Positions 3,969-24,687 of a stretch of DNA of 35,824 nt are shown piece after piece. The notes beneath the pieces were generated by a model. The model did no database searches and was not told the DNA's origin. It worked only from the letters and a program-made list of their open reading frames with translations. Both the position numbers and the translations under genes were made by a program. Every line of letters begins with the position of its first letter. The stretch's first letter is position 1. This DNA is from Candidatus Omnitrophota bacterium (lineage in GTDB: Bacteria > Omnitrophota > Gorgyraeia > 2-01-FULL-45-10), in the NCBI GenBank assembly GCA_017993955.1, contig JAGOLR010000010.1, forward strand, positions 1 to 35,824. Direction: 5' to 3'.

Positions 3969-3974
3969 GGGCAT

Positions 3975-7212: not shown

Positions 7213-7686
7213 CTATTTAACGATCAAGCGCGCATGCCTACGGCCACCCCACAATCCGCGATGAGCGCTGCAAAAAGAGTCGAAGACGCCTTTTTTATCC
7301 GGAGTAAACTCGATGCTCTCCGTTTTTCCCGGCTGTACTGCCAAATTAACATTAAACTCCCGTATAGTCAAGCCATGCGCAGCATCTGTGCTCGCAACTA
7401 CTAGGCGCACCTTTTCTCCGCGATTCACTACAATAGTATCGGGCTCAAAAGCATATTGCGACGCTTTGATCTCCACGATCCTTACGCCGCTCTCAACCCT
7501 CCCGGATAATGCCTGCGCCTCGTCCTTGGCTTTTTGTGCCGATGCGGCATCGCGTAACGTTTTCGCTCGGTCTTGTGAACGGTAGCGCCCGCCGCCGCGG
7601 GCTAACATCAGATTATCTGCGTTGGCCTGCGAGATCATAGACACTAACAGAAAAAACGTTGCGCAAAGAATAAAATATTTTTTCAT
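7213..7686 (-). CDS. Exported cupredoxin-domain protein
   Basis: A 157-residue protein with a signal peptide (residues 1-23, MKKYFILCATFFLLVSMIS then ANA). A basic linker precedes a cupredoxin-like beta sandwich (70-157). Possible copper ligands are H104 (AAHGL), C139 and H142 (FCSAH), and H151 near the C-terminus; the usual downstream Met is not evident. The layout resembles periplasmic CoxB-like cupredoxins. It may buffer or carry copper in the periplasm alongside the efflux pump. A GAGGTG ribosome binding site precedes the ATG. Confidence 0.75.
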   Translation of the reverse strand: MKKYFILCATFFLLVSMISQANADNLMLARGGGRYRSQDRAKTLRDAASAQKAKDEAQALSGRVESGVRIVEIKASQYAFEPDTIVVNRGEKVRLVVASTDAAHGLTIREFNVNLAVQPGKTESIEFTPDKKGVFDSFCSAHRGLWGGRRHARLIVK

Positions 7687-7761
7687 TTTACACCTCTTGG
7701 CTTATGGTGAACATATTTTATGCGGCCTCTTTGTGCCGATAGACTTAATTTCTGTTTACCG

Positions 7762-8100
7762 CTAGATCGCTTCCTCTCCTTGTTTCCCGGAAAGAATGCT
7801 TACGGCTTCAACAACGTCGTAAACAAATATCTTCCCATCGCCCCTTCTGCCGGTATGCGCCGCCTTGCGAAGCGTCTCAACGATATTGTCACAAGCGGCA
7901 TCGGAACATATGATCTCTATCTTTGTTTTTGGCGTGAACTCTACGGCATAGTCCGCCGCATGATGCGGGTAACTTTCGTCTTTTTCCCGGCCAAAACCTT
8001 TTGCATCGATTACCGTCATTCCGTGGATATGGATCAAACGCAATGCCTCTTTTGCCTTATGCAACATAAACGGTTGAATATACGCTTCTATCTTTTTCAT
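7762..8100 (-). CDS. P-II-family signalling protein inside a metal-efflux operon
   Basis: A 112-residue protein aligning end to end with GlnB/GlnK. The KGFGRE start of the T-loop, Tyr51 (the uridylylation site of GlnB), KTKIEI, and the C-terminal signature TGRRGDGKIFV with Lys90 are all present. Arg101 and Arg103, which contact ATP phosphates in E. coli GlnB, are replaced by Ser and Leu, and the T-loop reads DESYPHHAADY with two His. P-II homologues linked to metal transporters have been described as a distinct group. Here it lies one base after the membrane-anchored protein and directly follows the CzcCBA genes, so it may tune metal efflux rather than nitrogen metabolism. That role is inference. 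Confidence 0.85.
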   Translation of the reverse strand: MKKIEAYIQPFMLHKAKEALRLIHIHGMTVIDAKGFGREKDESYPHHAADYAVEFTPKTKIEIICSDAACDNIVETLRKAAHTGRRGDGKIFVYDVVEAVSILSGKQGEEAI

Positions 8101-8101
8101 T

Positions 8102-8581
8102 TTACCCCCTCCTTTTTTGCTGTGGGTACGTAAATTCCAAATAATCTATGCGTGTTCCTCTATAAATACTGACAAATGCGGAAAATTGTGTCACGCCGCT
8201 CAGTTTCATCCTGCCTTCAAGACAACCCGGGCCCTTGCTAGTAAAGGACAGCTTCGCATTCCTCAGGTCCAGCTCCTTTTGAGTGCCATCGGGTAAAACC
8301 AGCCGTAAGCGGCCGCTGCCGGCGATAGATTTTTGCTGCATTCCACTGTCATAAATATAAATTTGAAAAACCCATTCCGGGCTGCCAGGGGTAGCCACAA
8401 ACTCAATATAGCTCGGCATTCTCTGATCTATATAGGTCAAAGACCCTCCGTGGGGACCTTTATTGTCCTGCGGGATTATCGAATAACGGCACATAGAAAT
8501 ACCGCCTAAAAGCAACGCTCCGAAAAACAGCACGGCAACAATCACTGTCATTAAAACACCATTGCCTCTCGCCCTTGCCAT
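8102..8581 (-). CDS. Membrane-anchored periplasmic protein of unknown function in the czc operon
   Basis: A 159-residue protein with one N-terminal membrane anchor (about residues 8-30, VLMTVIVAVLFFGALLLGG) and a periplasmic beta-rich domain. I do not recognise the family. Visible features are PSYIEFVATPGSPEWVFQIY, a run of alternating hydrophobic residues, and a final YLEFTYPQQK. The start at 8581 is supported by GGGAGG five bases upstream; an in-frame ATG at 8635 would overlap czcA. It sits between czcA and the P-II gene, so it may be an accessory of the RND pump. Confidence 0.7.
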   Translation of the reverse strand: MARARGNGVLMTVIVAVLFFGALLLGGISMCRYSIIPQDNKGPHGGSLTYIDQRMPSYIEFVATPGSPEWVFQIYIYDSGMQQKSIAGSGRLRLVLPDGTQKELDLRNAKLSFTSKGPGCLEGRMKLSGVTQFSAFVSIYRGTRIDYLEFTYPQQKRRG

Positions 8582-8600
8582 CACCGCCTCCCTTAATATG

Positions 8601-11600: not shown

Positions 11601-11675
11601 GCCGACAATGATAACGAGCGTAAAAAATATGACGAGCATCCTCTGTTTCATTACAAATGACAGGAATCTATCCAT
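8601..11675 (-). CDS. czcA: Heavy-metal RND efflux pump, inner-membrane subunit (CzcA/CusA family)
   Basis: A full-length 1024-residue proton-driven pump with the RND layout: helix 1 at 12-30, periplasmic loop, helices from about 335, second loop, last helices to 1015. The relay region near residue 400 reads AMGMIVDASIVVAEN: Asp and Glu equivalent to CzcA D408 and E415 are present, but the D402 position is Ala, as in CusA. The CusA copper Met after 'ATDP' is not conserved (AEDPMGPEQND here), which speaks for divalent ions rather than Cu/Ag. Exact substrate is open. With CzcB and CzcC it would span the envelope and export ions from periplasm or cytoplasm. It starts 38 bases after czcB. Confidence 0.95.
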   Translation of the reverse strand: MDRFLSFVMKQRMLVIFFTLVIIVGGIVAWKNIPLDAFPDVTNVQVMILTPSPGLAAGEVERLISSPIEREMNGLPGIQFVRSLSKAGLSLVVVVFKDNVDIYFARQVVFERIQRAKEKLPEGIEPEMGPISTGLGEIYQYTLESKNKDPMELRSIQDWVIRPQLRTIPGITDINSFGGLVKQYQVIVNPDQLVKYNLTLAEVSEALKRNNSTAPANYIVQGQEQIIVRGTGLIRDLYDIENIVLATKRGTPIYVRDIAEVQIGHEVRWGASTRDAKGETVCGMVIMLKDANSKTVVDRLKTEIKKMQERLPEGVRINSFYDRTELIEACIHTVTQALLEGGILVIIVLFLLLGDLRTAAVVCLSLPLSALITFISMRWMGLSANLMSLGGLVIAMGMIVDASIVVAENIFRHLTENRAAAIKEKVAVCLNAVQEVARPIFFAIIITVITKVPLFALQSVEGKMFKPLAWTLIFAMAGSLLISLTIIPVISSYFIKGAAKDEDGPFVRWVKRFYRPALAAAIKHKKATIFASTAVLIISITLFRFVGTEFLPYLDEGSIALNVVKYPTVSIDASVKIGEKIEKLLLEFPEVSTVVTKTGRAAIAEDPMGPEQNDLFIMLKPKKSWKARSKMELIAAMDKKLGMIPGLKLNFSQPIALRVNELISGIKSDVAVKIFGYDLDILGEKAEEAEHILSKIKGASDVKVEQVSGFLQLDIDIDRASIARYGINAGDVNDIIEMAIGGKAVGTIYEEDRRYSLSIRFPENRRNSEEGIANILIPTPAGQRIPLGQLAKIKLVEAPNQISRENGMRRIVIECNVRGNDIGSFVAEARKKIAPIEKSLPSGYFISWGGQFENQERAMKTLSVVVPIVVFIIFILLFSTFGSFRPAFLVILNLPFAWVGGILTVLIFHITLSVSAVVGFITLFGIAVENGTVLVSYFIQLRKEGLSLHEAVIKGCDIRLRPLLLTSLTSVLGLVPVLFASGPGAEIQKPLAAVVMGGLVSSLVLTLIVLPVLYGWFEKEEVEF

Positions 11676-11713
11676 ATATTACCTCTTTCATCTAGGTTAT
11701 CCTAAATTTTGCG

Positions 11714-12667
11714 TTATTCAGCGCAGCCGGCACCCATCTTAGACTTCAGGAGCTCGGATTTAAGAAGGAAGCTGTTTTCCGTGACGACCTGATCCCCTTC
11801 CCCCACCCCTGTCGAGAGGGCCACTTGGCCACCCGACCGCTCTTTTACAGTGACTTCGCGGGCTTCGAATTTTTCTTCACCTGTCTTGACAAAGACCATC
11901 TTCTTTCCGTCTGATGAATGCACAGCCTCAAGCGGAACGACCACATATTGTTCAGACGTCGGAACGCTTATCTCTGCCGTAACGAACATTCCCAGCTTGA
12001 GAAGATACTCCGGATTGCTGATAGAGGCGCGCACTTTTATCGTATTGGTATCCCTGTCGACGCGAGGCGATATAAATATTATCTCCCCGTAGAAACATAC
12101 ATCAGGATACGCGACCGAACGGACGCATATTCTCTGCCCCATCTTCACATCCTTTACATCTTTCTCGTGAACATCGAAGGTCGCCTGCAATGCGGAGATA
12201 TCCGCTATGGTGTGGAGCGATGAAACGGTATCAACCTTATCGCCGGTCTTGGCAGAACTGCCTACAACTACGCCGGAGACGGGTGACTTAATCTCAATCG
12301 GAGAAGACGCGTTAGCGAGGGTAACTATGCAAAGAACGTCGTCTTTCTTGACAATAGAGCCTACGGCGGCCCTGCAGTCGGTGACCGTGCCGCTTCCGGG
12401 AGGCGGGACATTGACGGTGTTCTCGGCGTCCTGGGCGATCTGCCCGACAACGGATATCTTCTTCTCGAATGGCGTGAGCCTGGCTTCTGTGGTCTTCACC
12501 GCGATAAGTTCCTGAGAGCCCTTACTTACCGCAACCTCATTATGTTCGCCATGCTCCCCATGCTCAGCATGCTCACCCTTGCACTTATCCTCTTCGGCGC
12601 AAGCGATGTCTCCAAAGCCCAAAAAAAGAACAGCCAGTATTATTATCGGATATTTGACTCGTTTCAT
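11714..12667 (-). CDS. czcB: RND efflux periplasmic adaptor (CzcB family)
   Basis: A 317-residue membrane-fusion protein with a signal sequence (1-24). Next comes a His-rich segment HAEHGEHGEHNE (about 34-45) that can bind metal before delivery. A lipoyl-like/barrel-sandwich part is split around VNVPPPGSGTV and IEIKSPVSGVV, followed by a beta-barrel (ISPRVDRDTNTIKVRASISN) and a membrane-proximal domain. It links CzcA to the outer-membrane channel CzcC. The start codon overlaps the end of czcC by four bases, indicating coupled translation. Confidence 0.92.
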   Translation of the reverse strand: MKRVKYPIIILAVLFLGFGDIACAEEDKCKGEHAEHGEHGEHNEVAVSKGSQELIAVKTTEARLTPFEKKISVVGQIAQDAENTVNVPPPGSGTVTDCRAAVGSIVKKDDVLCIVTLANASSPIEIKSPVSGVVVGSSAKTGDKVDTVSSLHTIADISALQATFDVHEKDVKDVKMGQRICVRSVAYPDVCFYGEIIFISPRVDRDTNTIKVRASISNPEYLLKLGMFVTAEISVPTSEQYVVVPLEAVHSSDGKKMVFVKTGEEKFEAREVTVKERSGGQVALSTGVGEGDQVVTENSFLLKSELLKSKMGAGCAE

Positions 12668-13920
12668 TGTAGATATCCTTCCTTTCGCAGTGACGAATAC
12701 ATGACCTTTTCAAGCTGACTTATGGCAGTGCTCAGGCCAAAGAGGCCTTCGTAATACCGTATCCTCGTCTCGGTCGCCGTCTTCACTTGGTCGAGAAAAT
12801 TTATAAAATCTATCCCTCCCTCGCTGTAGCTGAGATCGGCTATGCGGAGAAGCTCATTCGCCTCTTCAAGCGATTTCTTTAAAAGCTCCAGTTGCTTCTG
12901 GCTCAGCTCGACATCGAGATACGCCTGATAGACATTGAATGCGACCATTCTCTTCGCCGCATCAAGCCTCGTGCTTTGAGCCTCTTTCTGCGCCCTGGCC
13001 TTCTGCACCTGCCCCTGGTTCAGGTCCCACAGAGGTACGGTCGCGCCTATAATGAGGTTGTAATCCTTATCATAGGACTCGTTCACATTCTTGAATCCTA
13101 TATACGGCGATGGCAGCCTGCTCAATTGCTCCTTCGTCAGATTCCTCGCCTCAGAATCGAGACGTATTTTTTCAGCCTTTATATCCGGGCTCATCGATGA
13201 AGCGATACCGGTAGCCTCTGAAAGGCTGATCTTGAGCGCCTCTTCCTTAAGCTCCTCATCGATAGAAAAAACGTAGTCCATCGTTCTCCCTAAAAGGAGA
13301 TTGAGCGCCGCCTTGTCGGCCTTTACCTCTTTCTCCGCGATATTATAAGCATTCTCGCTCCTGAGCAGCTCTATCTTGGAGCGCTGAAGCTCATTCTTCA
13401 ATGCCTTACCCGACTGATAACGCAGCTCTACCTGGCTATAGAACCGCCTGTAGACTTCAAGGTTACCGGTAGCGAGCTCCAACCTCTTCTTGTCGAGGAT
13501 TATCCTGGTATAGGTCTCTCTCACCTCGGCATAAACAGTAGCCCATACCGATTTAAGAGATTCTCCTCGCGCCGACACTTCATTCTTGGCTATCCTGGTC
13601 TTGAGGCCATAGGTTCCCAATGGTTCGAAACCCTGTATGATCTCAAAGCTGCCAAGCCTCACATCGCGCTCTCCTTCTTCATTCTCCCTGAGCCCGGCTA
13701 TTTCAAACTCCGCCTCAGGGTTTGGAAGCGCTCGCGCGGTGATCAGCTCGCCCTTGGATGCGTCTATCATCTTACACGCTTCAAGCACCCTGGGGTTGTT
13801 GGTGCGTGCGATCGAAAGGGCCTTCTCAAGCGTCAAGACCTCTTCTGCCTCAGCAGAAAAGGATACGCCTGATATGAGAACAATAACCGCGAACAGGGCA
13901 ATGCCTGTTTTTTTTACCAT
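12664..13920 (-). CDS. czcC: Outer-membrane efflux channel (CzcC, TolC-like)
   Basis: A 418-residue protein with a signal peptide (1-25) and two OEP repeats typical of TolC-like trimers: long amphipathic helices rich in Glu, Lys and Leu (about 115-215 and 310-400), and the repeated 'R.FYSQVELRYQSGKALKNEL' / 'LLRIADLSYSEGGIDFINFL' motifs. It forms the exit duct of the CzcCBA pump. AAGGAG precedes the ATG. It follows the small Cys-rich gene with a 76-base gap that holds no other gene. Confidence 0.92.
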   Translation of the reverse strand: MVKKTGIALFAVIVLISGVSFSAEAEEVLTLEKALSIARTNNPRVLEACKMIDASKGELITARALPNPEAEFEIAGLRENEEGERDVRLGSFEIIQGFEPLGTYGLKTRIAKNEVSARGESLKSVWATVYAEVRETYTRIILDKKRLELATGNLEVYRRFYSQVELRYQSGKALKNELQRSKIELLRSENAYNIAEKEVKADKAALNLLLGRTMDYVFSIDEELKEEALKISLSEATGIASSMSPDIKAEKIRLDSEARNLTKEQLSRLPSPYIGFKNVNESYDKDYNLIIGATVPLWDLNQGQVQKARAQKEAQSTRLDAAKRMVAFNVYQAYLDVELSQKQLELLKKSLEEANELLRIADLSYSEGGIDFINFLDQVKTATETRIRYYEGLFGLSTAISQLEKVMYSSLRKEGYLQ

Positions 13921-13996
13921 ATGGGAACTCCTTGTTTTATCGACACTACTGGATACACCGATACTGCTTGTGCTGCTTGAAATTAATACGGAGATA

Positions 13997-14275
13997 CTAG
14001 ACGAGTGTTTTTGGCGGATACTTGATACTGCGGACTACGAGCATGCGGTAAAAGGTTTGTGATGAGGCAAAAAATGGTGACACTACAAGAGATGGGGCTG
14101 TTACGAGAACATTATTTTGCGTCAGCATCTTACAGCATGGGGAATTGCAGAAAGCGACACAAGTGCAGTGGTTGGTGTCATGGCACGTTCCGCCGAAAGT
14201 CTCTTCACAAAGCCCTGTAGCGGCAAAGAGAAAAACAGCGACGGTCAGGATCGCTATTAAGCACGTATATCGCAT
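13997..14275 (-). CDS. Small exported Cys/His-rich protein, first gene of the metal-efflux operon
   Basis: A 92-residue protein with a signal peptide (about 1-22, ending TGLC-EE) and a dense cysteine cluster CHDTNHCTCVAFCNSPCC (about 31-48), which looks like a metal-binding site. The C-terminus ends in RSIKYPPKTLV. I know no firm family; similar small proteins precede czc-type operons. No Shine-Dalgarno site is present at either possible ATG (14275 or upstream), but the -10 box ends seven bases before the ATG at 14275, so the transcript is probably leaderless and that start is preferred. It may act as a periplasmic metal scavenger. Its architecture parallels the first gene of the uptake-type operon at 17637-17924. 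Confidence 0.65.
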   Translation of the reverse strand: MRYTCLIAILTVAVFLFAATGLCEETFGGTCHDTNHCTCVAFCNSPCCKMLTQNNVLVTAPSLVVSPFFASSQTFYRMLVVRSIKYPPKTLV

Positions 14276-14282
14276 AGGGGTA

Positions 14283-14311
14283 AGTGTATCATACATATAA
14301 ACCAAAGTCAA
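14283..14311 (-). promoter_or_regulatory. Promoter of the metal-efflux operon
   Basis: On the minus strand TTGACT (14306-14311), a 17-base spacer, and TACACT (14283-14288). Seven bases separate the -10 box from the ATG at 14275. It is the only clear promoter before czcC and would drive all ten genes down to 4998. I see no convincing operator palindrome in it. Confidence 0.6.
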
Positions 14312-14338
14312 GTTGTGCCTTGCTGCGGCGAGCACATG

Positions 14339-14391
14339 AAGGCCTCTCTCGAGGTTAACTCGTAAAAGGCCTTACACAGTGGTGAGCGATG
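14339..14391. repeat. Module junction: hairpin followed by TGGTGAGCGATG
   Basis: AAGGCCT (14339-14345) and AGGCCTT (14367-14373) pair, with an inner CGAG/CTCG stem, followed by TGGTGAGCGATG at 14380-14391. The 12-base word also stands at 4698-4709 after a hairpin, so the two sites enclose exactly the metal-efflux operon with its promoter. From 14392 to 14518 no gene is visible. Confidence 0.5.
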
Positions 14392-14518
14392 ACAGCTACC
14401 TTAGAGGATGCCTATCTATTATTCACGCTATCAATAGGTACAGCGTCACTGTTTTTCTGTCATGAAATAAACCAGAATGATAGCTATTCTTGCATCATTC
14501 CTGAATAGCAGATATCCT

Positions 14519-15337
14519 TTAATTCCGAAGAAATATCTTTATTAAAGAAGACGCGATTAGCATTAATCCGAAAGCGCAGACGATGCTTGCTCCTGTAGGC
14601 AGATCCATACAATAAGATGCTACAAGCCCCAATACGCTTGCCAAAAATCCGATGACCCAGCCCCACATCAACCTTGTCTTTATAGTGTTAGAAAAAAGCA
14701 TCGCGCAGGCAGCTGGTACGATCAGAAACGTGAATATAAGAAGCACTCCCGCTATTCTTACCGAACTCGTAACGACAAGGCCAAGGGAAACATAAAATAG
14801 AAAATCGAATAATTTAATGTTGATCCCTTTTCTGGATGCCGCCTCCGGATTCTGCGAGATCATGAGAAATTTGTTCCTGTAAAGAAAATGAAATATCCCG
14901 ACCGCTGATGAAATAATAAGTACACGCCACGCTTCGTTTGGGGCAATGAGCAGTATATTGCCCACAAGCGCCTGTTTGATATGTTCATCGCCTTCGCCTG
15001 AACGGCTCAAAACAAGTATGAGAAGAGCCGCGGAAACGGCATAGGTAATACCTATAATGGCTTCCTGGGGGATACGCTGTATTCTGAGCCGCGTAAGAGA
15101 GAATATGGCGGCGCCGATGACCGCAAAGCCAAGCGAGATCCAATAAGAACATCCGCTGTCAATGCTCACCCCTATCATCAAAGCGATACTAGCTCCCAAT
15201 GCGGCTATTTGGGCAAGCGCCAGATCTACGAAAATTACTTCGCGCTCTATAACGTGCAGTCCTAAATAGGTGTAGATCCCTGCCAGGATCAAACACGTTA
15301 AAAATGGTAATGTCATTACATGCACAAATCCGGCCAT
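14519..15337 (-). CDS. znuB: Metal ABC transporter permease (ZnuB family)
   Basis: A 272-residue integral membrane protein with 8-9 predicted helices. FAVIGAAIFSLTRLRIQRIPQEAIIGI, the following 'YAVSAALLIL' and 'GVLLIFTFLIVPAACAMLF' are typical of ABC-3 permeases for zinc or manganese import. The start at 15337 follows GGAGG at eight bases; an upstream TTG at 15352 lies inside the ribosome binding region. It lies 27 bases after the ZnuA-like gene. No ATPase gene follows or precedes it, so the importer is incomplete here. Confidence 0.88.
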   Translation of the reverse strand: MAGFVHVMTLPFLTCLILAGIYTYLGLHVIEREVIFVDLALAQIAALGASIALMIGVSIDSGCSYWISLGFAVIGAAIFSLTRLRIQRIPQEAIIGITYAVSAALLILVLSRSGEGDEHIKQALVGNILLIAPNEAWRVLIISSAVGIFHFLYRNKFLMISQNPEAASRKGINIKLFDFLFYVSLGLVVTSSVRIAGVLLIFTFLIVPAACAMLFSNTIKTRLMWGWVIGFLASVLGLVASYCMDLPTGASIVCAFGLMLIASSLIKIFLRN

Positions 15338-15364
15338 AAAACTCGCCTCCAAATTCTTTAGTGT

Positions 15365-16300
15365 CTATTTCAATGCATCGCTTATTTGTTTGAAATTATA
15401 GTCAAAAAAGCTGATCACATTATCTGTCCCGGGGATCTCTCCTACATTCTGGCAGATAGTCACGACTTTCGCGCCCACACGCGCGGCAAGCTTGTCAGCA
15501 GCATCCTTTGGATAGTAAGTCGGCATAACTATTGCTTTTACATTATGCGCTTTTACATACTCTTCGAGAAATTCAAGATGCTTTGGTGTAGGCGGAATTC
15601 CCGGCTTTACCTCTATATACTGATCCGCCTTGAGTCCCGTGAAATCCGCAAAGTATATAATATCCTTATGATACGAGATGACCTCCTGGCCCTTGCAAGG
15701 CTCGCAGAGCTTTTTCCATTCGACAATCTTGTTTTCTAAACGAGAAACAAACGCTTTTTCGTTCTCTTCATAATATGCCGCATTCGCCGGATCGATAGTT
15801 TTTAGTTTTTCAAGAATGTTCCCGGCCATAACCACGACATTCTCCGGGTTCATGGTATAGTGTGGATTGCCGTATAAATGGATATCGCCTTCCGCACGCG
15901 ACAGTTGATGGTCCGGCACGTCCAGAAGCCTCACGCCTCTCGACATGTCAACGTTCTTTTCGCGCCCCCTGAAGAGCTCTGCCTTACCGGCAGCTTCAAG
16001 GAGAGGATCCGACCATGCCTCTAGATCAAGCCCGGCATTGACATAGAGATCTGCTTTCGCCACATTTCGCACATCGCTCGGTTTGGGCTGAATAAAATGG
16101 ACATTAAATTTCGGCTGAGCGACATATTTTACATCCACCTTATCTTTGCCTATCTCTTTAACTATATCCGCATATATCGTCTGGGTAGCAACGATCTTTA
16201 GCGTATCCTCTTTCGCAAGACATGGACCGCTATTGGCAAGACAACTAAAAAGCAACGTAATAATACCGGTTTTTGAGATTAAGCCTATCGATCTGCGCAT
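15365..16300 (-). CDS. znuA: Metal ABC transporter substrate-binding protein (ZnuA family)
   Basis: A 311-residue periplasmic protein with a signal sequence (1-29). Likely metal ligands are His in VHFIQPKPSD (about 74), His in GNPHYTMNP (about 147) and His in SYHKD (about 211), all at usual positions of cluster A-I zinc/manganese binding proteins. The acidic/His-rich loop of E. coli ZnuA is absent. It binds the ion in the periplasm and delivers it to the permease. AAGGAG precedes the ATG, and the outer-membrane barrel gene ends 14 bases upstream. Confidence 0.88.
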   Translation of the reverse strand: MRRSIGLISKTGIITLLFSCLANSGPCLAKEDTLKIVATQTIYADIVKEIGKDKVDVKYVAQPKFNVHFIQPKPSDVRNVAKADLYVNAGLDLEAWSDPLLEAAGKAELFRGREKNVDMSRGVRLLDVPDHQLSRAEGDIHLYGNPHYTMNPENVVVMAGNILEKLKTIDPANAAYYEENEKAFVSRLENKIVEWKKLCEPCKGQEVISYHKDIIYFADFTGLKADQYIEVKPGIPPTPKHLEFLEEYVKAHNVKAIVMPTYYPKDAADKLAARVGAKVVTICQNVGEIPGTDNVISFFDYNFKQISDALK

Positions 16301-16314
16301 CGTTATGCTCCTTG

Positions 16315-17580
16315 TTATTGAAGTTTATGTTTATGTTCGCCTATGGCGAAGGTTCCCTGGAGAAATACCCGGTCATCGATAGCGCCGGTAGTGAGAATGG
16401 TGTGGGAGACTTGAGCCCGTAACCTCGCAAATTCGCTCTGATAAAACGTCAGATATCCGGTATAGCCTACCTCGGCTTTATTTGGATCGTCTCCGTTCGT
16501 CAGCCTGTCAACAGGCTGCACATAATCAAGCCGGAAACCTGCCCCCCATGATTGCGAGAGGCGGAAATCGAAGAGTCCATATCCGCCCCAGAAATCGCTG
16601 CCGGGATTGTACGAAGTGTACGTATTACCCGCATCATCGGTGGCAAAAATAGCCTCTTCACGACGGCTCATAAAGAATGTTTCACCCTGGAGTTTGACTT
16701 CCTGATGTGGGCTGATAATATGGCGAAGCGTTCCATCGAGCCCCAGCACATTCACCTTAAAACTCGCGTTATCATCGTTAGATCCGAGCATATCCGATAC
16801 TCCAAGCTCGAGATTTGTAACATCGGTAATATCGAGGTAGTTCTTAATGTGTCCATAAAGCGTCGGTCGTTTTCTCTCGGGGCCGAATGCCGTACCTCCC
16901 TCCCCATTCCCGCCTTGAAGCACGCCTACGGTTACCTGATGCACTGACGGTAGAGGAAGGTCCAGCATCTTTGTCAAATCGACGCCAGTTTTGAAAAGAC
17001 CTTCTGACCCGAAATAACGCTGTATTACCAGAGGCTCATCTACGGTATCAAGGCTGTCTCTATGCACCGGTATTGTTTTCCCGATCTTCGGCATAAATCT
17101 GCCGATTCTTGCGGTCACGTCAAATGGCAGACCAAAGCGCGTTAAGTATGCCTCCTCAAGATCGACACCTTCATCCTCATTGAAGGCTATGGTTGCATCG
17201 AGCCGGGAATAAGGATCGACGTTGCTGCCGAGCACGAGCTCCAGCTCTCTGACATAAACCTGATTAATAAAGTCCTCGTTGACCTTTGAGCTGTCCAGGG
17301 GCGCAACTATATCAGCAACCGCGCCTATCTCAGGAATAAGTTTGGATGGAACAACTGCAGGTGGCGGCGCAGGTTGCGGAGCAGGGGCTTGATACCGTAT
17401 TTCGTAAGTCTTCTTTAAGTCAGAGATCTCTCTTTGCTGCACGTCTACCGTGGTCTTCAGATCTTTGACCATCTGGGCCAGATCTCTTACCTGGGCTTCC
17501 AGCGCTGCCATGTCCTGCGCAAAGGCTTCTTGTGGCAGTATAAGCACAATAAATAGGATTAAAAATAGAGCAATCCTCAT
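16315..17580 (-). CDS. Outer-membrane beta-barrel (porin-like) with N-terminal coiled coil
   Basis: A 421-residue exported protein. It has a signal peptide (1-21, ending AFA-QD), a coiled coil (about 24-60, heptads of Leu/Val with VDVQQREISDLKKTYE), a Pro-rich linker (APAPQPAPPPAVVP), then a long beta-rich barrel domain with many aromatic-ended strands. The C-terminus ends in HKHKLQ. The layout is that of trimeric porin-like proteins found beside ZnuA-type genes. Its operon place before znuA suggests that it lets zinc or a similar ion cross the outer membrane; this is inferred from context. GGAGG precedes the ATG. Confidence 0.7.
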   Translation of the reverse strand: MRIALFLILFIVLILPQEAFAQDMAALEAQVRDLAQMVKDLKTTVDVQQREISDLKKTYEIRYQAPAPQPAPPPAVVPSKLIPEIGAVADIVAPLDSSKVNEDFINQVYVRELELVLGSNVDPYSRLDATIAFNEDEGVDLEEAYLTRFGLPFDVTARIGRFMPKIGKTIPVHRDSLDTVDEPLVIQRYFGSEGLFKTGVDLTKMLDLPLPSVHQVTVGVLQGGNGEGGTAFGPERKRPTLYGHIKNYLDITDVTNLELGVSDMLGSNDDNASFKVNVLGLDGTLRHIISPHQEVKLQGETFFMSRREEAIFATDDAGNTYTSYNPGSDFWGGYGLFDFRLSQSWGAGFRLDYVQPVDRLTNGDDPNKAEVGYTGYLTFYQSEFARLRAQVSHTILTTGAIDDRVFLQGTFAIGEHKHKLQ

Positions 17581-17636
17581 GACACTTCCTCCAAGTATTT
17601 TTTAATTAAACTGAATCGGGGAACTACTACGAAATA

Positions 17637-17924
17637 CTAGAGAAGGGCCGGAGGCGCTCTTGCTGATACTCTTTGATAGGAACTTGCAGCGCAGGGGAAA
17701 ATTATGTTGAACAGGAAATGCAGAACAAACAACGAAACTATTATTGCGCTAAAATCTGTAATCGTTGCGGAAAACCCTTGAATACTGAATTGGCAAATCG
17801 GGCAGGATTCGGTTTTTGAATGGTCAGAATCTTTACTGTGTGTATGCTCGATGGAGGCAAGGGCTCCCGCTACGCTCAAACATACAAAGGCAGCTATGAC
17901 GAGAATGGATAACACTTTTCTCAT
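17637..17924 (-). CDS. Small exported His/Cys protein (DUF2946-like), first gene of the uptake-type operon
   Basis: A 95-residue protein with a signal or anchor segment (1-22), a His-rich stretch EHTHSKDSDHS, the motif CPICQF (about 40-45), one more membrane-like segment (55-75), and the C-terminal end RAPPALL. Short proteins with this outline, including the RAPP end, occur next to metal transport genes (DUF2946-like). The ATG at 17924 has no Shine-Dalgarno site but lies seven bases after a perfect -10 box; an upstream in-frame start would fall inside the promoter. The gap from its stop to the barrel gene is about 56 bases, so it probably heads that operon. Confidence 0.6.
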   Translation of the reverse strand: MRKVLSILVIAAFVCLSVAGALASIEHTHSKDSDHSKTESCPICQFSIQGFSATITDFSAIIVSLFVLHFLFNIIFPCAASSYQRVSARAPPALL

Positions 17925-17931
17925 AGGTGTC

Positions 17932-17960
17932 ATCATAGCACCGAGGAAAACCACTGTCAA
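17932..17960 (-). promoter_or_regulatory. Consensus promoter of the barrel-znuA-znuB operon
   Basis: On the minus strand TTGACA (17955-17960), a 17-base spacer and TATGAT (17932-17937). Seven bases later comes the ATG at 17924, so the mRNA should be leaderless. Confidence 0.75.
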
Positions 17961-17962
17961 TA

Positions 17963-17995
17963 ATAAGCGCCGCGGCTTACCACCGCGGCGCTTAT
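17963..17995 (-). terminator. Terminator-like hairpin after the large terminase gene
   Basis: A perfect 13-bp GC-rich stem (17963-17975 with 17983-17995, arms ATAAGCGCCGCGG and complement) with a 7-base loop. It lies 17 bases after the terminase stop codon and directly upstream of the -35 box of the next operon. The T-run is weak (TTATTATTG), but the position separates the two operons. Confidence 0.65.
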
Positions 17996-18012: not shown

Positions 18013-19668
18013 CTAGTAGTCCCTCCTGTGCCAGCCATACCAGCCATATGGAACGAGGCCTTCGGGCGTCGGATAGATCGGAGAGTCTGGCTTGGGGCGA
18101 TCGCCAGGCCCCGCCCCTACCCAGAAGTCGAAATCGTTACCGTCCGACAGCCTCACCGCCATCTCCAGTGCGTCCAGACCGTCATCGTGCCTGCCCTTCG
18201 GAAAATACCGCGCCTCTTCCAGGAGCTGCCGATGCCTCTTACTGAACTGCAGCATACCGCTTAAAATACGCGGTCGTAGTGTCTGAATCCTGGAGATCTT
18301 GTTATCCTTATTGATGATGGCCTCAATATTGGGGTATATGCGCGCCTCTTCCCCCTTCTTTTTGACCATATCGATAAGGACCCTCTGATACTGGTTCGCC
18401 TCGATACCGATCTTTGTAATCTTATACTTGATCTGGTAGGCGAGAATGGCATCTACGATCTCTTCCGGCGGCCTGCGCTTTATATCGGCATCGACGATAT
18501 ACAGCCTGCCCGTCTTTTCATCCTTGGCCACAACAACGATAGCCGAAGGATCAGCCTTTACTGAATCGAGGCCGAGGCTCGGATCGCAGGCGAGATAAAA
18601 CTTCACAGAACCTTCGAGCAACCTCAGAAGGTCTTCGGTAGACCTGCCATCCTGGTCATAATAGACGATGCTGTCTACGTTGAGCAGACAATCAGCGGGA
18701 TTGCGAGGCATATTCTGCATCTCGCTCATGAAGCTGAGCTCATTATCAGCCCACATCGACATGATGTCGTAGAGTTTATACCGCGACGCCCACAGGAGCT
18801 TGGCTTCCTCATCCATGCGAGCCTTGTTCTGCTCATAGTACACCGCAGCTGCTTTTGGGCCGCTTGAGCCCTGGAACTCATTCCTGCCCCGATAAATGGC
18901 GCTCCACACCTCCCACAGGTCCATGTTCTTGGGCCACGTTATGATTGTGGAATAGATGCGTTTCGTCCATGAGGGGTTATCCTCCTTTGAAACGAACTCG
19001 GCCAGCAGGCTGTGAGGATGGTAGAGATTACCGAGAAAGGTATGATTGGTATTCTCTGCACCGACCCTCAAGACCGACTTATCGTACCAGTCCCTTCTCT
19101 TATCGAGTAAATCCAGAGAGAAGGTGTTCTCCGAATCTTCCATGTCATCGGCAATAACATCTGTGGGGCGGGTAGTGCCGAATCGCCTTCCACGGATCTG
19201 CTGGCCTGTGCCGAGTGCCATGATTTTAACACCATTACGCGTGATAATATCGGACTCTCTCCAACGCAGGCACTTGGATATTCCCTTGGATTCGAATACC
19301 TCCGGGAAATCCATCCTAATAAGCTCATTTTCCATCAGCTCTTTCTTAATATTATCGAGCATCTGCGTCGCCTGTGACGCCGTATTGGAGATGATCACAA
19401 TATAGGCGCCGGGTGAGTGGCATATAAGGCGAAGAACATGTATGAGCGTGATGAGCGTCGATTTCCCGAAGAAACGCGGGGCAGCGATCGCTATTTTCTG
19501 CCCGCGCTTAACCATCGCCTCATCCAGGAGGCGATATATCTCCAGATGAGCCTCCGATGGCTCATACTGCATGTGGTGCTTCATATATAACCGCGAGAAG
19601 GCAAGGAGCGATTTCGCGCTCTCGGCTCGCCGCAGCTTTGATAAATCGGTTAAAATATCACGTTTCAT
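18013..19668 (-). CDS. terL: Phage-type large terminase (TerL)
   Basis: A 551-residue protein with the two usual parts. The N-terminal ATPase has a Walker A variant APRFFGKST (63-71) and a Walker B VIADDMED (171-178) with the catalytic acid. The C-terminal RNase-H-like nuclease has D362 (ACDPSLG), E423 (GIEANQYQ) and D495/D499 (HDDGLDALEM). All key residues are present, so the protein looks functional. TerL powers DNA packaging into a procapsid and cuts the concatemer. It overlaps the small terminase gene by four bases. No portal, protease, capsid or tail gene follows: the next genes belong to the metal operon behind a terminator. It may serve a satellite that borrows capsids, or a non-viral role. 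Confidence 0.9.
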   Translation of the reverse strand: MKRDILTDLSKLRRAESAKSLLAFSRLYMKHHMQYEPSEAHLEIYRLLDEAMVKRGQKIAIAAPRFFGKSTLITLIHVLRLICHSPGAYIVIISNTASQATQMLDNIKKELMENELIRMDFPEVFESKGISKCLRWRESDIITRNGVKIMALGTGQQIRGRRFGTTRPTDVIADDMEDSENTFSLDLLDKRRDWYDKSVLRVGAENTNHTFLGNLYHPHSLLAEFVSKEDNPSWTKRIYSTIITWPKNMDLWEVWSAIYRGRNEFQGSSGPKAAAVYYEQNKARMDEEAKLLWASRYKLYDIMSMWADNELSFMSEMQNMPRNPADCLLNVDSIVYYDQDGRSTEDLLRLLEGSVKFYLACDPSLGLDSVKADPSAIVVVAKDEKTGRLYIVDADIKRRPPEEIVDAILAYQIKYKITKIGIEANQYQRVLIDMVKKKGEEARIYPNIEAIINKDNKISRIQTLRPRILSGMLQFSKRHRQLLEEARYFPKGRHDDGLDALEMAVRLSDGNDFDFWVGAGPGDRPKPDSPIYPTPEGLVPYGWYGWHRRDY

Positions 19669-20348
19669 TGAGGATCCTCCTTATTGGTTGTTGATGCATC
19701 ACTTTTCTTGGCAAGTTTCGTCACTTCATGACTGATCTCGGCCTCCTCGATCTTCTGCCGTAAGAGCTTGATCTTCTCTTCGGTCGCCGGATCGATCGTA
19801 CCTGATTCTCTTGATGCCCGTTCGATATCGAGCAACATGTTTTTGGATTCCGCGATGCCCTGTTCTTTATCATCGTCCGTCACATGATGAAAGATATCCT
19901 CTATAATCTCCTGGGGCTTTAAGGGGAGATACCCGAGCGTCTGCATCTTCTCCACCACCTCCTTCAGTACCTTCCATGCCAGAAACTCAGACTGCGCCTT
20001 CTCACTGTGAGAAGCGTCAGGGCTTCTGGCCAGGCGCATCAGATATTTGTGATGCGCCATAGCCTTCTGAAACATATCTCCTACGATCTGCTTTGCAAGC
20101 TCGACGTTTGGAGTAAGGGCATTTCGTGCGCGCAGATCCACGAGATCGCGGCTTACGGTCTTTTCGCTGCGTGCGAGAATTTGGGCTGTCTGTGCCTCGG
20201 TATATCCCTCACCTATTAAAAACTCCACGCAGCGCTGCCTATCCTCCTTCGCGAGCGTCTTCGGATTAACGGTTCCGTCCTTGATCTCCTGAATGATCGA
20301 AAGGATGGATTCCCCCTCTTTGGAATGCAGAGTCTCGTCATTATGCAT
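19665..20348 (-). CDS. Putative small terminase / HTH protein (TerS-like)
   Basis: A 227-residue acidic, mostly helical protein. A helix-turn-helix (YTEAQTAQILARSEKTVSRDL, about 52-72) is followed by a helical middle (85-140) and a charged C-terminal part likely to be coiled coil (165-215). DNA-binding plus helical oligomerisation and the position directly before terL fit a small terminase, which recognises the DNA to be packaged. Sequence similarity to known TerS families is weak, as is usual for this subunit. It overlaps the methylase gene by 8 bases and terL by 4, so the three are translated together. Confidence 0.6.
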   Translation of the reverse strand: MHNDETLHSKEGESILSIIQEIKDGTVNPKTLAKEDRQRCVEFLIGEGYTEAQTAQILARSEKTVSRDLVDLRARNALTPNVELAKQIVGDMFQKAMAHHKYLMRLARSPDASHSEKAQSEFLAWKVLKEVVEKMQTLGYLPLKPQEIIEDIFHHVTDDDKEQGIAESKNMLLDIERASRESGTIDPATEEKIKLLRQKIEEAEISHEVTKLAKKSDASTTNKEDPQ

Positions 20349-21642
20349 GCGCTGCCTCCGTCATATATTTTTCCCGCAGAGCCTGCGGCACCTTAGTAGC
20401 GCCTACGAAATTTATGTAGCGCTGGATGACCGCATCGCAGTATCGTGGATCGATCTCCATACCGTAGCAGCGCCGGCCAAGGCTCTCAGCCGCAATAAGC
20501 GTCGAGCCTGATCCCAGAAAGAGATCGAGTACAATGTCGCCGCGCACTGAGCTATTGCGTATAGCACGCTGGGCCAGCGCGACAGGCTTCTGGGTTGGAT
20601 GAACGTACTCCCGCGACGGATCGCGCTTAACCTCCCAGAGCGTAGACTCGGTAACGGGCCCATACCATTTATGGGCGCCGTTATCCTTGCGCCAGCCGTA
20701 AAGGCAGAACTCGACCTGCTCATGGTAATCTGAATATGACATGCCGAAGTTTGGCTTTGCCCATACAATCACCGATGCCACATGAAACCCAAGCCCTTCC
20801 AGCATCGAATGCATGGAACCGAAGTTCTTGTGTCCGTTCCAGATATACGCCGCGGCGCCGGGCGCCAGAACTCCTGCCATATTAGTAAAAACCTCCTTAA
20901 GCAATGTCTCGTATTCGTCTTGCGGCATATCGTCTGAACGGATCATCTCCCACTGACGAGCTTTCTTCGGATTTTTATTCTGGTTTGGCCGAGCACTACC
21001 TGTATATGCAACGTTATACGGAGGATCGGTGTGCACCAAATGAGCCTTTCCGCCGGCCATGAGGCACCCCAGATCCTCAGTACTCGAGGAATTCCCGCAC
21101 ATAATCCTGTGTTTACCCAGCTCGGTTACGTCGCCTTGTTTAGTGATCGTCTTAACGATAGTCCCAGCAACCGCATCTGCGTTAAAATCATCTTCTCTGC
21201 CTTGCTGATACCTATCCAGGAGCTTGCTTACTTCGGGGAAGTCAAAGCCGATGTCGCCTATATTGAAGGTAGGCGACTTCGTAAACTCACCCAGTAGGAT
21301 GGCGAGCTTACGATCATCCCACATGCCCTGAACTTTATTGAGCACGATATTGAGCGTTTTTTCATCTTCCGGGTCAAGATTAACAACGCTCACATCGACT
21401 TCCTCACATCCATTCTGAATCAGAACCTTCAACCTCTGATGACCACTAACAAGGTTTCCGCTACGTTCGTTCCATACGAGCAACTCAACAAGACCGTATT
21501 TATTGAGACTTCCTTCGATCTGCCTGTACTCCACATCGTCCGGCTTCAGATCCTTTCTCGGATTATAAGGAGCCGGGTTGATCTCCTTCATCTTGATCTT
21601 CCTTTTATTTACAGACGCGTCTATGCGCCCCTTCTTGTCCAT
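20341..21642 (-). CDS. ParB-like domain fused to DNA methyltransferase (beta class)
   Basis: A 433-residue protein. Residues 19-85 form a ParB/Srx-like domain (NPAPYNPRK, SLNKYGLVELLVW, SGHQRLKVL). Residues 165-430 form a methyltransferase with motif IV DPPY at 206-209 preceding motif I DLFLGSGSTLIAAE (about 380-393), the beta order of N6-adenine and N4-cytosine enzymes. This fusion is common in prophages, where it modifies phage DNA or acts in replication and packaging control. The start at 21642 is set by a perfect AGGAGG seven bases upstream; an upstream in-frame ATG at 21705 would translate through the leader hairpin. It is the first gene of the methylase-terS-terL operon. No matching restriction enzyme is visible. 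Confidence 0.88.
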   Translation of the reverse strand: MDKKGRIDASVNKRKIKMKEINPAPYNPRKDLKPDDVEYRQIEGSLNKYGLVELLVWNERSGNLVSGHQRLKVLIQNGCEEVDVSVVNLDPEDEKTLNIVLNKVQGMWDDRKLAILLGEFTKSPTFNIGDIGFDFPEVSKLLDRYQQGREDDFNADAVAGTIVKTITKQGDVTELGKHRIMCGNSSSTEDLGCLMAGGKAHLVHTDPPYNVAYTGSARPNQNKNPKKARQWEMIRSDDMPQDEYETLLKEVFTNMAGVLAPGAAAYIWNGHKNFGSMHSMLEGLGFHVASVIVWAKPNFGMSYSDYHEQVEFCLYGWRKDNGAHKWYGPVTESTLWEVKRDPSREYVHPTQKPVALAQRAIRNSSVRGDIVLDLFLGSGSTLIAAESLGRRCYGMEIDPRYCDAVIQRYINFVGATKVPQALREKYMTEAAHA

Positions 21643-21830: not shown

Positions 21831-22112
21831 TTATTCAAACAATCCCTTTTCTATAATACCGTGTTTCTCTAAAAGTCGCATTGCCCACATCTGCGGCTTA
21901 AAACAGCCTTGCTCCCAACGAATTATCTGAAGACGGTTAACCTGCAACTTGGTAGCCAGCTGTTCCTGCGTTAATCTATGTTTCGCTCGGTAAAGTCGTA
22001 ACCTCTGAGCAATGATGTATTTTATTTTAGCTGTATCAGTTGATTTTGCAAGATCCTCATACTTACTGATCGCTTCAACTATCTTCTTGTGGAGCTTATT
22101 CAGATCCTGCAT
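21831..22112 (-). CDS. Xre-family HTH regulator
   Basis: A 93-residue protein. An N-terminal helical stretch (1-35) is followed by a HTH_3 domain (about 36-80) with AQRLRLYRAKHRLTQEQLA and VNRLQIIRWEQG. The outline fits a phage-type repressor or an antitoxin, but no toxin gene lies beside it. The ATG at 22112 has no Shine-Dalgarno site and lies six bases after a -10 box. An 18-bp perfect palindrome sits in its promoter. It stands between the leftward methylase-terminase operon and the rightward DUF2924-recombinase operon, the classical place for a lysis/excision switch regulator; this role is inferred. Confidence 0.8.
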   Translation of the reverse strand: MQDLNKLHKKIVEAISKYEDLAKSTDTAKIKYIIAQRLRLYRAKHRLTQEQLATKLQVNRLQIIRWEQGCFKPQMWAMRLLEKHGIIEKGLFE

Positions 22113-22230: not shown

Positions 22231-22253
22231 TGACATGACGGGAGGTGGTTATC

Positions 22254-22700
22254 ATGATTGATACCAAGGTGTTATCCGAAATTCTGGCGCTCAAAAACGC
22301 GCCTCTTGCGGAGCTGCAGGCCAAATACGCGGAGCTTTACGGCGGCAAAAATGCCCCTAACATCAACCGTATAGAGCTCTGGAAGAAGATCGCCTATAAG
22401 CTGCAGGAGCGGGAATATGGCGCCCTATCGGCTGAAGCGGACACCGCGCGGGATAGCTTAATCAACGAATATGACCCGATAAACCAGAGGGCGCTGCGCT
22501 CCGAAACTGCCAGAGCCCGTGATAAGAGGCTCCCTATTCCCGGCACAGTAATCACTAAGACATATAAGGGCAAACAATTACAGGTGAAGGTTCTTGAAAA
22601 AGGCTTCGAATATAACGGAAGAGTATATAGATCGATAGGTGCCGTAGCGAAAGCGATAACAGGCATCCATTGGAGCGGGTATCTATTCTTTAACCTATAG
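22254..22700 (+). CDS. DUF2924 family protein, recombinase partner
   Basis: A 148-residue protein. The N-terminal LKNAPLAELQAKYAELYGG and LWKKIAYKLQEREYGAL, and the C-terminal PGTVITKTYKGKQLQVKVLE, GFEYNGRVYRSIGAVAKAIT and HWSGYLFFNL, match DUF2924 along its length. Proteins of this family are found almost always next to a serine recombinase and may bind DNA or direct the recombination, but the biochemical role is unknown. The start at 22254 follows GGAGG; a GTG at 22245 is in frame but overlaps that site. The recombinase gene starts ten bases after its stop. Confidence 0.88.
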   Translation: MIDTKVLSEILALKNAPLAELQAKYAELYGGKNAPNINRIELWKKIAYKLQEREYGALSAEADTARDSLINEYDPINQRALRSETARARDKRLPIPGTVITKTYKGKQLQVKVLEKGFEYNGRVYRSIGAVAKAITGIHWSGYLFFNL

Positions 22701-22709
22701 GTATTAATT

Positions 22710-24002
22710 ATGAAGCCGAAAATCTACTGCGCCATATACACCCGAAAATCCACAAGCGAAGGGCTCGACACCGACTTCACCTCCCTCGACAACCAGCGCG
22801 AGTCTTCCGAGAGCTACATCCAAAGCCAAAAAAGCGAAGGCTGGATAGCGCTACCCGACCGGTATGACGATGGCGGCTATACCGGCGGTAACACCGAGCG
22901 CCCTGCCCTACAAAGGCTTATTACCGATATCAAAGAAGGTAAGGTCAACTGCGTTGTCGTCTATAAAGTGGATAGGCTGTCGAGATCGCTTCTCGATTTC
23001 GTGCAGATATTGGAGCTATTTGAAAAGAATGGCGTCACGTTTGTGTCGGTCACACAGCATTTCAATACCAATAACTCAATGGGACGTCTTACTCTCAACA
23101 TACTTTTATCTTTCGCGCAGTTCGAGCGCGAGATCATCAGCGAAAGGGTCAAAGATAAGATGGGTGCCGCGCGCAAGAAAGGTAAATGGGTCGGCGGGGC
23201 TCCTATCCTGGGCTATGACATCGACAAAGTAAACCATAAGCTCGTCGTTAATAAGACCGAGGCGGAACTTGTCCGTAAGATGTTCGATATATATCTGGAA
23301 AAGAAGTCATGTCTTAAAACGGCTATGACGCTTAACGATGAAGGATATAAAACGAAAGAGTTTATTTCGAAAACCGGTAATAAGCATGGTGGTTTCCAAT
23401 TCAAGCATACAAACATCCAGCAGATGCTTAAGAATCCTCTCTACGTCGGGAAGGTTCATCACGACGGAGCCTTGTATCCCGGACTACAGGAAGCGATAAT
23501 TTCTGAGGCGATATTCCAAAGGGCTCAAGATCTTTTAAAAAGTAACCGTGTTGAGCGCTTTAGACGCAAAAACGTGCCGTTCCGAGGCCTCCTCAACCAT
23601 ATCTTGCGTTGCAAGGCATGCGACAGCATAATGTTTCATACCTACACAAAGAAGAAACACCGCGGCTACCGTTACTATGTCTGCATGAACGCCCAAAAAC
23701 GCGGTTATCAGAACTGCCCCACACGGTCGGTGAACGCTCAATCAATCGAGGACGCTGTCATAGAGTCGTTAAGAACCAGCGGAAAAGATGATCAGGCGCT
23801 TGATAACGCGCTAATCGTTAACTCGCCTATATGGGAGGCACTCTTCCCGCAGGAAAAGCACCACGCGCTGCGCCTTATGCTTAAAAGCGCTTACTATGAC
23901 GGTAAAAACGAAAAGCTTGGGCTCGCGTTTAATCCAAGCGGGATCGCACTATTAAACAGAATGCAGGAAGGGCTGCCAGACGATGGACACGATAGATCGT
24001 GA
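22710..24002 (+). CDS. Large serine recombinase (integrase of the island)
   Basis: A 430-residue site-specific recombinase. The resolvase domain (1-150) has the catalytic Ser14 in IYTRKSTSEG, Arg in YKVDRLSRSLLDF and the helix QFEREIISERVKDKM. A recombinase domain (165-275, GYDIDKVNHKLVVNKTEAE...NPLYVGKV) and a zinc ribbon (Cys301, Cys304 in LRCKAC, then Cys in YYVC and QNCP) follow. The coiled-coil part is short. Such enzymes integrate and excise elements without host factors. It is encoded 0.6 kb from the tRNA-Lys 3' end, the usual place for an island integrase. It overlaps the next gene by 20 bases. Confidence 0.93.
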   Translation: MKPKIYCAIYTRKSTSEGLDTDFTSLDNQRESSESYIQSQKSEGWIALPDRYDDGGYTGGNTERPALQRLITDIKEGKVNCVVVYKVDRLSRSLLDFVQILELFEKNGVTFVSVTQHFNTNNSMGRLTLNILLSFAQFEREIISERVKDKMGAARKKGKWVGGAPILGYDIDKVNHKLVVNKTEAELVRKMFDIYLEKKSCLKTAMTLNDEGYKTKEFISKTGNKHGGFQFKHTNIQQMLKNPLYVGKVHHDGALYPGLQEAIISEAIFQRAQDLLKSNRVERFRRKNVPFRGLLNHILRCKACDSIMFHTYTKKKHRGYRYYVCMNAQKRGYQNCPTRSVNAQSIEDAVIESLRTSGKDDQALDNALIVNSPIWEALFPQEKHHALRLMLKSAYYDGKNEKLGLAFNPSGIALLNRMQEGLPDDGHDRS

Positions 24003-24399
24003 GTTTGACATAAAGCTCAAAAAAGTGTTTCATGCCCCGGATACGCGGACCGACATGAGGTTCGCGAGACTCCCGCGCATTAGAAGGTATCTTCTTTTAG
24101 CTTTCCAGATCGACCGGTTGATCGAAAACGATCCTGATTTATCGCTATACAAGATAGCGGACTGGCTGGGTTGGTCATATACTCACGTAAAACAGATCGC
24201 CAATCTCATCTATCTCTGCCCGAAGATCCAGAAAGAACTGTTACTCGGTGATACAGATAAGATAAGCCGCTTTAGCGAGTCCTCATTGCGCCCTGTTACG
24301 AAGGAAGTAAACTGGCAAAATCAGCTATCTCTTTGGCAAGACCTGCTAAATAAACCCCCTCAAATACCCGCAAATTCCACTAAACTAGCGACATCCTAA
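23983..24399 (+). CDS. Small HTH protein downstream of the serine recombinase
   Basis: A 138-residue basic protein. The segment RLPRIRRYLLLAFQIDRLIE, then LSLYKIADWLGWSYTHVKQIANLIYLCPKIQKELL, is a helix-turn-helix closely resembling small proteins commonly encoded directly after serine recombinases with DUF2924 upstream. The C-terminal VTKEVNWQNQLSLWQDLL resembles the family's 'W..Q...W' end. It may act as a recombination directionality or regulatory factor; this is not established. It overlaps the recombinase gene by 20 bases, indicating coupled translation. Decayed copies of its 3' end occur at 4063-4155 and 2451-2505. Confidence 0.7.
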   Translation: MDTIDREFDIKLKKVFHAPDTRTDMRFARLPRIRRYLLLAFQIDRLIENDPDLSLYKIADWLGWSYTHVKQIANLIYLCPKIQKELLLGDTDKISRFSESSLRPVTKEVNWQNQLSLWQDLLNKPPQIPANSTKLATS

Positions 24400-24454
24400 A
24401 TTTGATAGTTTGATATACATTTCTGGCCGGAAATCGGCCTATAAAGGCCGGCTA

Positions 24455-24618
24455 GCGTTAAAATGGCGGGCTCTTGCGGTAGCGATCAATTTCGAATAAT
24501 TCGCGGGAAATACTCAAATTCCTCGTCGGGAAATCATAGAAAAAGCCCTCGTCAGTAGAACCTAACGAGGGCTTCAATGTTATCTACCTATCTGTTTCTT
24601 GGTAGATTAAGTGGTGAG
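24455..24618 (+). repeat. Element right-end trailer, copy B (164 bp)
   Basis: Collinear with 4211-4374 (see that entry). It links the HTH gene to the tRNA-Lys 3' end and ends exactly with TGGTGAG, the last bases of the tRNA. Hairpin arms AAGCCCTCGT (24543-24552) and ACGAGGGCTT (24565-24574) may terminate the recombinase operon. The preceding gap 24400-24454 holds only a GGCC-rich inverted repeat. Confidence 0.8.
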
Positions 24619-24687
24619 CCGCGCAGGACTCGAACCTGCCACAACCACATTAAAAGTGTGGTGCTCTGCCTGATGAGCTAGCGGCCC
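24612..24687 (-). tRNA. tRNA-Lys (anticodon TTT)
   Basis: A complete 76-base cloverleaf read on the minus strand: acceptor GGGCCGC/GCGGCTC (one G-U pair), D arm GCTC...GAGC, anticodon arm CCACA-CTTTTAA-TGTGG with anticodon TTT, T arm GCAGG-TTCGAGT-CCTGC, discriminator A and an encoded CCA end. Its 3' end abuts the recombinase module and is duplicated at 2854-2879 and 4525-4545, so it is the likely integration target that stays intact after insertion. Confidence 0.97.

Follow-up and report, generated by a model that had tools for sequence, protein, structure and literature searches.

Known phage satellites either borrow the large terminase subunit (TerL) of a helper phage or bring terminase and head together. 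P4 and the Staphylococcus aureus pathogenicity islands (SaPIs) use the helper's large terminase, with some SaPIs adding a small subunit (TerS), and phage-inducible chromosomal islands (PICIs) likewise use the TerL of the helper, whereas capsid-forming PICIs (cf-PICIs) and the Streptomyces satellites Mulch/Flayer encode capsid and portal alongside the terminase (PMC10690885). Phage-inducible chromosomal minimalist islands (PICMIs) are small and marine (PMC10803314), tycheposons carry tyrosine recombinases (PMC10872708), and in phage WO of Wolbachia a DUF2924 gene adjoins that of a large serine recombinase (PMC11376236). According to a review, terminase genes can signal phage-mobilised elements, no class with the gene set described below being named (PMC11389934), and our own search, outside which lay the subscription literature on virion encapsidated integrative mobile elements (VEIMEs) and tycheposons, found neither a published terminase-only serine-recombinase island nor a satellite that has a complete terminase but lacks head genes. 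Here we describe a terminase operon from a Candidatus Omnitrophota bacterium. The window, i.e. the whole stretch of DNA analysed, is an entire contig of 35,824 bases from a draft genome (1.84 Mb, 123 contigs, 93.8% complete). With somewhat better than even confidence we read the operon as the packaging module of integrative satellites that fill the heads of helper phages by means of their own terminase; the element and its TerL lineage are observed, whereas the packaging is what we infer. The operon comprises a trio of genes followed by a hairpin:

20341-21642, minus strand: N6/N4 DNA methylase with a fused ParB-like domain at the N terminus (PF01555, PHROG_498, PHROG_620)
19665-20348, minus strand: TerS-like helix-turn-helix (HTH) and coiled-coil protein, 227 aa (position, size, HTH, conservation in 28/30 loci)
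18013-19668, minus strand: TerL, ATPase and RNase-H-like nuclease, 551 aa (PHROG_38, Terminase_6C, PDB fold matches)
17961-17995, minus strand: strong, terminator-like hairpin 3' of TerL with a weak T-run (RNA fold z -4.86)

The genes overlap by 8 bases (methylase/HTH protein) and 4 bases (HTH protein/TerL), in agreement with a preliminary description of this DNA. The methylase starts with the ATG at the 21642 end, its open reading frame (ORF) extending to a GTG at 21705, and matches PHROG_498 (E 1.8e-122) as well as the ParB-like PHROG_620. TerL matches PHROG_38, terminase large subunit (E 4.8e-88), and Pfam Terminase_6C above its cut-off, and its predicted fold resembles full-length two-domain terminases in the PDB (T4 gp17, HK97, Sf6, D6E). 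The catalytic residues are present, namely R65/K69/S70 of Walker A, D174/D175 of Walker B and the acids D362, E423 and D495/D496/D499, and they are kept across 31 related TerLs save for gaps and single substitutions; ATPase motifs, RNase-H-like nuclease acids and two-domain fold are all in place. The HTH protein is a putative TerS by its position upstream of TerL, its size and its HTH with coiled coil, and a homologue is found at the terminase-portal-capsid region of a contig from a real phage (L170), where portal and capsid were assigned by reading, not by family search. Of the terminator proposed at the end of the operon the hairpin was borne out, but its T-run is a poor one and the site is missing from the output of the terminator scan.

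The operon belongs to an integrative element, E1, which is inserted at a tRNA-Lys gene and has the following components besides the trio:

4368-24618, no strand: E1, integrative element of ~20.2 kb, with the 7-bp core TGGTGAG (tRNA-Lys 3' end) at 4368 and 24612
24612-24687, minus strand: tRNA-Lys(TTT), the attachment gene (ARAGORN)
22245-22700, plus strand: DUF2924 protein, partner of the serine recombinase (PF11149, E 1.6e-35)
22710-24399, plus strand: large serine recombinase in two frames, 22710-24002 (430 aa) and 23983-24399 (138 aa) (Resolvase, Recombinase, Zn_ribbon)
21831-22112, minus strand: XRE-type HTH regulator (HTH_3/HTH_31)
4998-17960, minus strand: cargo comprising DUF302, two cation diffusion facilitator (CDF) efflux proteins, a cupredoxin, a resistance-nodulation-division (RND) efflux pump with HlyD and outer membrane efflux protein (OEP), an ABC-3 and ZnuA metal ATP-binding cassette (ABC) system, a protein without Pfam hit and a DUF2946-like protein (Pfam)

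The DUF2924 and recombinase genes (22245-24399) are divergent from the trio, and homologues of the regulator occupy the equivalent place in L022, L032, L081 and L082. Metal-transport and efflux genes, trio, regulator, DUF2924 gene and recombinase account fully for the gene content of E1, and no primase or replication gene is found among its annotated ORFs. The preliminary description had recognised the trio and the recombinase of this island, but it missed the true extent (~4368 to 24618), the tRNA-Lys attachment (att) sites and the metal cargo, as well as the split of the recombinase, the mini-element in tandem with E1 and the defence genes carried by relatives. In relatives the recombinase is a single ORF of ~530-550 aa, and the split in the window falls in a linker. 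A second copy of the trio, with an intact serine recombinase, is present on another contig of the same genome (C22, locus L022), its TerL being 39% identical to that of the window.

Elements of this kind recur beyond the window, an outcome that favours the preliminary description. A TerL profile search found the terminase in 32 of the 384 genomes of the phylum; in the 30 loci tabulated the TerS-like gene adjoins TerL 28 times and the full trio is present 25 times. Thirteen of these loci also carry DUF2924 and serine recombinase genes, usually at the end opposite TerL with the cargo between, and in 8 of the 13 the recombinase has a tRNA gene (Lys, Asp, Gln or His) no more than 1.6 kb away, for which a rough binomial estimate gives a chance of ~7e-9. 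The genome G258 has an identical tRNA-Lys core, 29.4 kb from core to core with the trio inside, and in G233 an end-arm repeat is found at tRNA-His, ~14.5 kb apart. Exact distal att repeats were sought in G106, G108 and G240 and none was detected, G108 showing one weak 55-bp match. Outside the phylum set, IMG/VR yielded three similar elements (L173, L176, L181), all with DUF2924 and serine recombinase, and a Goldbacteria genome one more with trio and DUF2924 genes.

The trio is the constant part of these islands, while their cargo varies and in the relatives is mainly anti-phage, including type I, II and III restriction-modification, MADS, PbeA, SIR2, Schlafen/AlbA and patatin/MBL/E2 systems (MBL, metallo-beta-lactamase). 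We weighed whether a viral motor was recruited for a job other than packaging and long kept in capsid-less elements, either as a terminase-derived restriction system, i.e. a translocating nuclease distinguishing self from non-self, or as a motor for processing island DNA; this we regard as a realistic but minor possibility. Of the rivals its restriction-like form holds the greatest interest, given that the operon almost always includes the methylase and that the cargo consists of defence genes. The terminase would then be repurposed as one more defence module of the island, functionally like type I/III systems: the methylase would mark self DNA, the HTH protein recognise a site, and TerL translocate along and cut unmarked invaders. 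The union of methylase, DNA-binding protein and ATPase-nuclease in one overlapping operon, the wealth of restriction-modification and other defence genes in the islands and host genomes without recognised portals all fit this scheme, which we nevertheless consider unlikely. No PADLOC model matches TerL, the trio stays constant where defence cargo changes, and a ParB-methylase is already found near TerL, portal and capsid in real phages. In Streptococcus phage Javan630 and phage NatCom_3357 it lies 1.4-1.6 kb upstream of TerL-portal, and Faecalibacterium phage Mushu has a ParB-like gene between TerL and portal. The trio therefore looks like an inherited packaging module and resembles the entry of a phage packaging region.

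The preliminary description had noted that portal, protease, capsid and tail genes are missing from the window, which Pfam and PHROG searches confirmed. Among the families listed by PHROG scans of 134 ORFs, mostly downstream of TerL, none represents portal, capsid, protease or tail, the first scan listing the best 25 of 81 families. Direct comparison of the element loci with portal, protease and capsid of Mushu, the D3112-like Pseudomonas phage JBD26 and L170, and with the genes neighbouring TerL in dozens of viral contigs, revealed no virion homologue and returned nothing but a ParB-like gene. Pfam Phage_portal and Phage_capsid were detected in 0 of 25 host genomes, with 4 of 14 controls positive for each; these two models took the place of Portal_Mu (PF06074), which was uninformative as the controls were also blank. 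A 47.8-kb contig among the three IMG/VR elements likewise showed no portal or capsid match. Thus, no portal or capsid gene was recognised in the same element of any relative, close or distant.

The absence of virion genes and of a resident helper, together with a TerL that retains its nuclease residues, would also suit a terminase that serves other element biology, for instance the cleavage of concatemers after replication, active excision or the feeding of DNA into a transfer or particle system that escaped recognition. We judge this distinctly improbable, as it has no known precedent and no conjugation or secretion gene was recognised in the element. Very improbable, in our view, is that the islands are phages so strongly diverged that their head and tail genes, perhaps distant or split, escaped recognition. 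The phylum is poorly sampled, many ORFs have no match at all, and the families listed in the first PHROG scan were a subset. However, E1 is wholly accounted for by the genes listed above, and the genes beside TerL are not common between loci, unlike a morphogenesis block. TerL itself was easily found, and portal and capsid normally stand beside it: in annotated phages the portal is close behind TerL, and the nearest phage TerLs in IMG/VR are mostly followed by recurrent neighbour genes, in the annotated Mushu the portal.

A tree of 107 TerL sequences places the elements apart from the phages, with 3 label changes versus 25 for shuffled labels, and the only viral contigs grouping with the elements are L173, L176 and L181. 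Between two genera (genomes G209 and G362) the ratio of nonsynonymous to synonymous substitution rates (dN/dS) is 0.09 for TerL and 0.11 for TerS; both genes are under strong purifying selection, and the relaxed selection that would have spoken for decay is not seen. The TerL-TerS block is 89% identical between these genera at the DNA level, compared with ~70% for their chromosomal DNA (measured with G307), and the methylase next to it has an amino-acid identity of 51%. The module is thus horizontally mobile, and the identities point to a recent transfer together with module exchange. That the window holds a decaying prophage with a terminase left by chance, as the split recombinase and degenerate fragments such as L036 might suggest, is extremely improbable and was rejected for the family, given the same virion-less arrangement in many families, the dN/dS of ~0.1 and the separate TerL clade; neither a degenerate prophage, already doubted in the preliminary description, nor a prophage deletion accounts for the operon.

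We return to the satellite as the favoured reading. Since the relatives lack shell genes and often carry anti-virus genes, the islands probably travel in shells borrowed from real viruses. In the mechanism we propose, the recombinase would excise the island at the core in the tRNA 3' end, and infection by a helper phage would lead to copying of the island. The ParB-methylase would mark or recognise a packaging site on the island, and the TerS-like protein would load the island's own TerL, which would dock on helper portals and fill helper heads with island DNA. The particle would then carry the island and its cargo into a new cell, where it would integrate again. Dependence on a helper, docking on a foreign portal and encapsidation are thus predicted steps.

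Several points weigh against this reading. Our searches turned up no helper phage, no particle or virion DNA, and neither a packaging site nor a gene for capsid size; the self-packaging satellite proposed in the preliminary description stands as the best explanation, while its packaging into helper capsids is deduced. Neither an HK97-type portal nor such a capsid shows up in the host genomes; with no resident helper, the reading has to assume a phage from outside. A satellite terminase that has to fit a foreign portal is unusual. For the TerS-like protein HTH, size and position agree with the original assignment, but no Pfam, PHROG or significant PDB-fold match links it to known small terminases. 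Only in three genomes is the distal end of the element fixed, and the window copy, with its split recombinase, may be immobile. If the satellite reading is true, a lineage that is widespread and retains just the whole motor would represent a missing intermediate strategy, and it would explain the movement of defence islands and metal-resistance genes in uncultured bacteria without recognised prophages, a movement testable in virion metagenomes. If the motor does not serve packaging, it would represent a new use of a terminase.

The left side of the att array holds two further features:

2697-4374, no strand: E2, tandem non-autonomous mini-element of 1.7 kb with a Fic gene only, both ends common with E1
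4525-4545, plus strand: 21-bp duplicate of the tRNA-Lys 3' end, within the left end of E1 (exact repeat of 24612-24632)

A 26-bp copy of the tRNA-Lys 3' end is located at 2854. Over their 178 bp the left arms of the two elements (2697-2874 and 4368-4545) do not differ, and they include the 21-26-bp tRNA 3'-end copy, and the right arms (4102-4374 and 24346-24618) share 77% identity over 274 columns, each ending in TGGTGAG. This layout is the pattern of tandem integrations at one tRNA, and E1 (4368-24618) plus E2 (2697-4374) is the simplest parsing. The left edge of E1 could lie anywhere within 4368-4525 because part of the left arm belongs to a palindromic repeat with copies across the genome. 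Since E2 and E1 have both ends in common, the same recombinase could move E2, which is likely a non-autonomous passenger of the E1 recombinase. An analogue of E2 of ~1.4 kb is present at tRNA-Lys in G258 (L093, about 10366-11750). The dispersed palindromic repeat, ~110-150 bp long and resembling repetitive extragenic palindromes (REP) or miniature inverted-repeat transposable elements (MITE), occurs at 4413-4523 within the att array and at ~20 other places of the genome. A left 151-bp segment of the array was considered as an element end and rejected, as it consists partly of a palindromic repeat present at many genome places. The frr-tRNA-Lys neighbourhood is kept in nearly all family relatives in which frr was found, and the sequence downstream of the tRNA differs in almost every one. 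Such variable DNA past tRNA-Lys is as expected of an integration hot spot; because of it an empty tRNA-Lys site is not definable among the relatives.

We also observed recurrent genes around the relatives' elements. Just past TerL, six genomes of different families have a gene for an MBL-fold hydrolase (beta-lactamase/RMMBL type; L030:7233-9982, L033:364-2123, L091:1583-2884, L094:794-2086, L099:2809-4125, L090:4790-6082), accompanied by small partner genes in several loci, and this may be an element gene. Several elements have small XRE-type HTH genes convergent to the 3' side of TerL (L024:18932-19147, L026:19660-19899, L083:702-917 and others), of which the window has none; small ORFs past TerL were considered as excisionases, a candidate assignment rejected when alignment identified XRE-type HTH regulators. 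A different serine recombinase, ~25% identical, lies beside tRNA-His in G108 and G312 (L144:441-1910, L143:749-1417), and competing elements appear to use one tRNA-His hot spot.

Among phages the closest TerLs by sequence (34%) are those of the Mu-like Mushu and JBD26. Unlike the islands, these are genuine phages in which portal, protease and capsid come next, and their TerLs fall in another clade. Phage WO, likewise, is a full phage with virion genes. A gene transfer agent, i.e. cellular virion genes packaging random host DNA, does not describe the islands, as the genomes contain no HK97-type capsid or portal. Like the cf-PICIs and Mulch/Flayer, which encode both terminase subunits, the islands encode TerL and a putative TerS, but the capsid and portal found there are not recognised here, and of the cf-PICI set (own capsid, portal and protease plus TerS and TerL) no head gene was recognised in the element. 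P4, phage-inducible chromosomal island-like elements (PLEs), PICMIs, VEIMEs and tycheposons are comparable, being satellites or integrative islands associated with tRNA genes and carrying a cargo that varies (PMC11389934, PMC10872708); the window island has the tRNA site of a tycheposon but a large serine recombinase instead of the tyrosine type. PICIs and SaPIs resemble the islands in being integrated, lacking virion genes, carrying cargo and encoding a packaging specificity protein of their own (TerS in some; a putative one in the islands), but the islands encode TerL and a ParB-methylase and integrate by a large serine recombinase with DUF2924, and E1 does not follow the PICI order of integrase, AlpA/Stl regulator, Pri-Rep replication and TerS or Rpp. 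Like phage satellites in general, E1 is an integrative element that, without a full set of virion genes, carries an integrase and is bounded by att sites.

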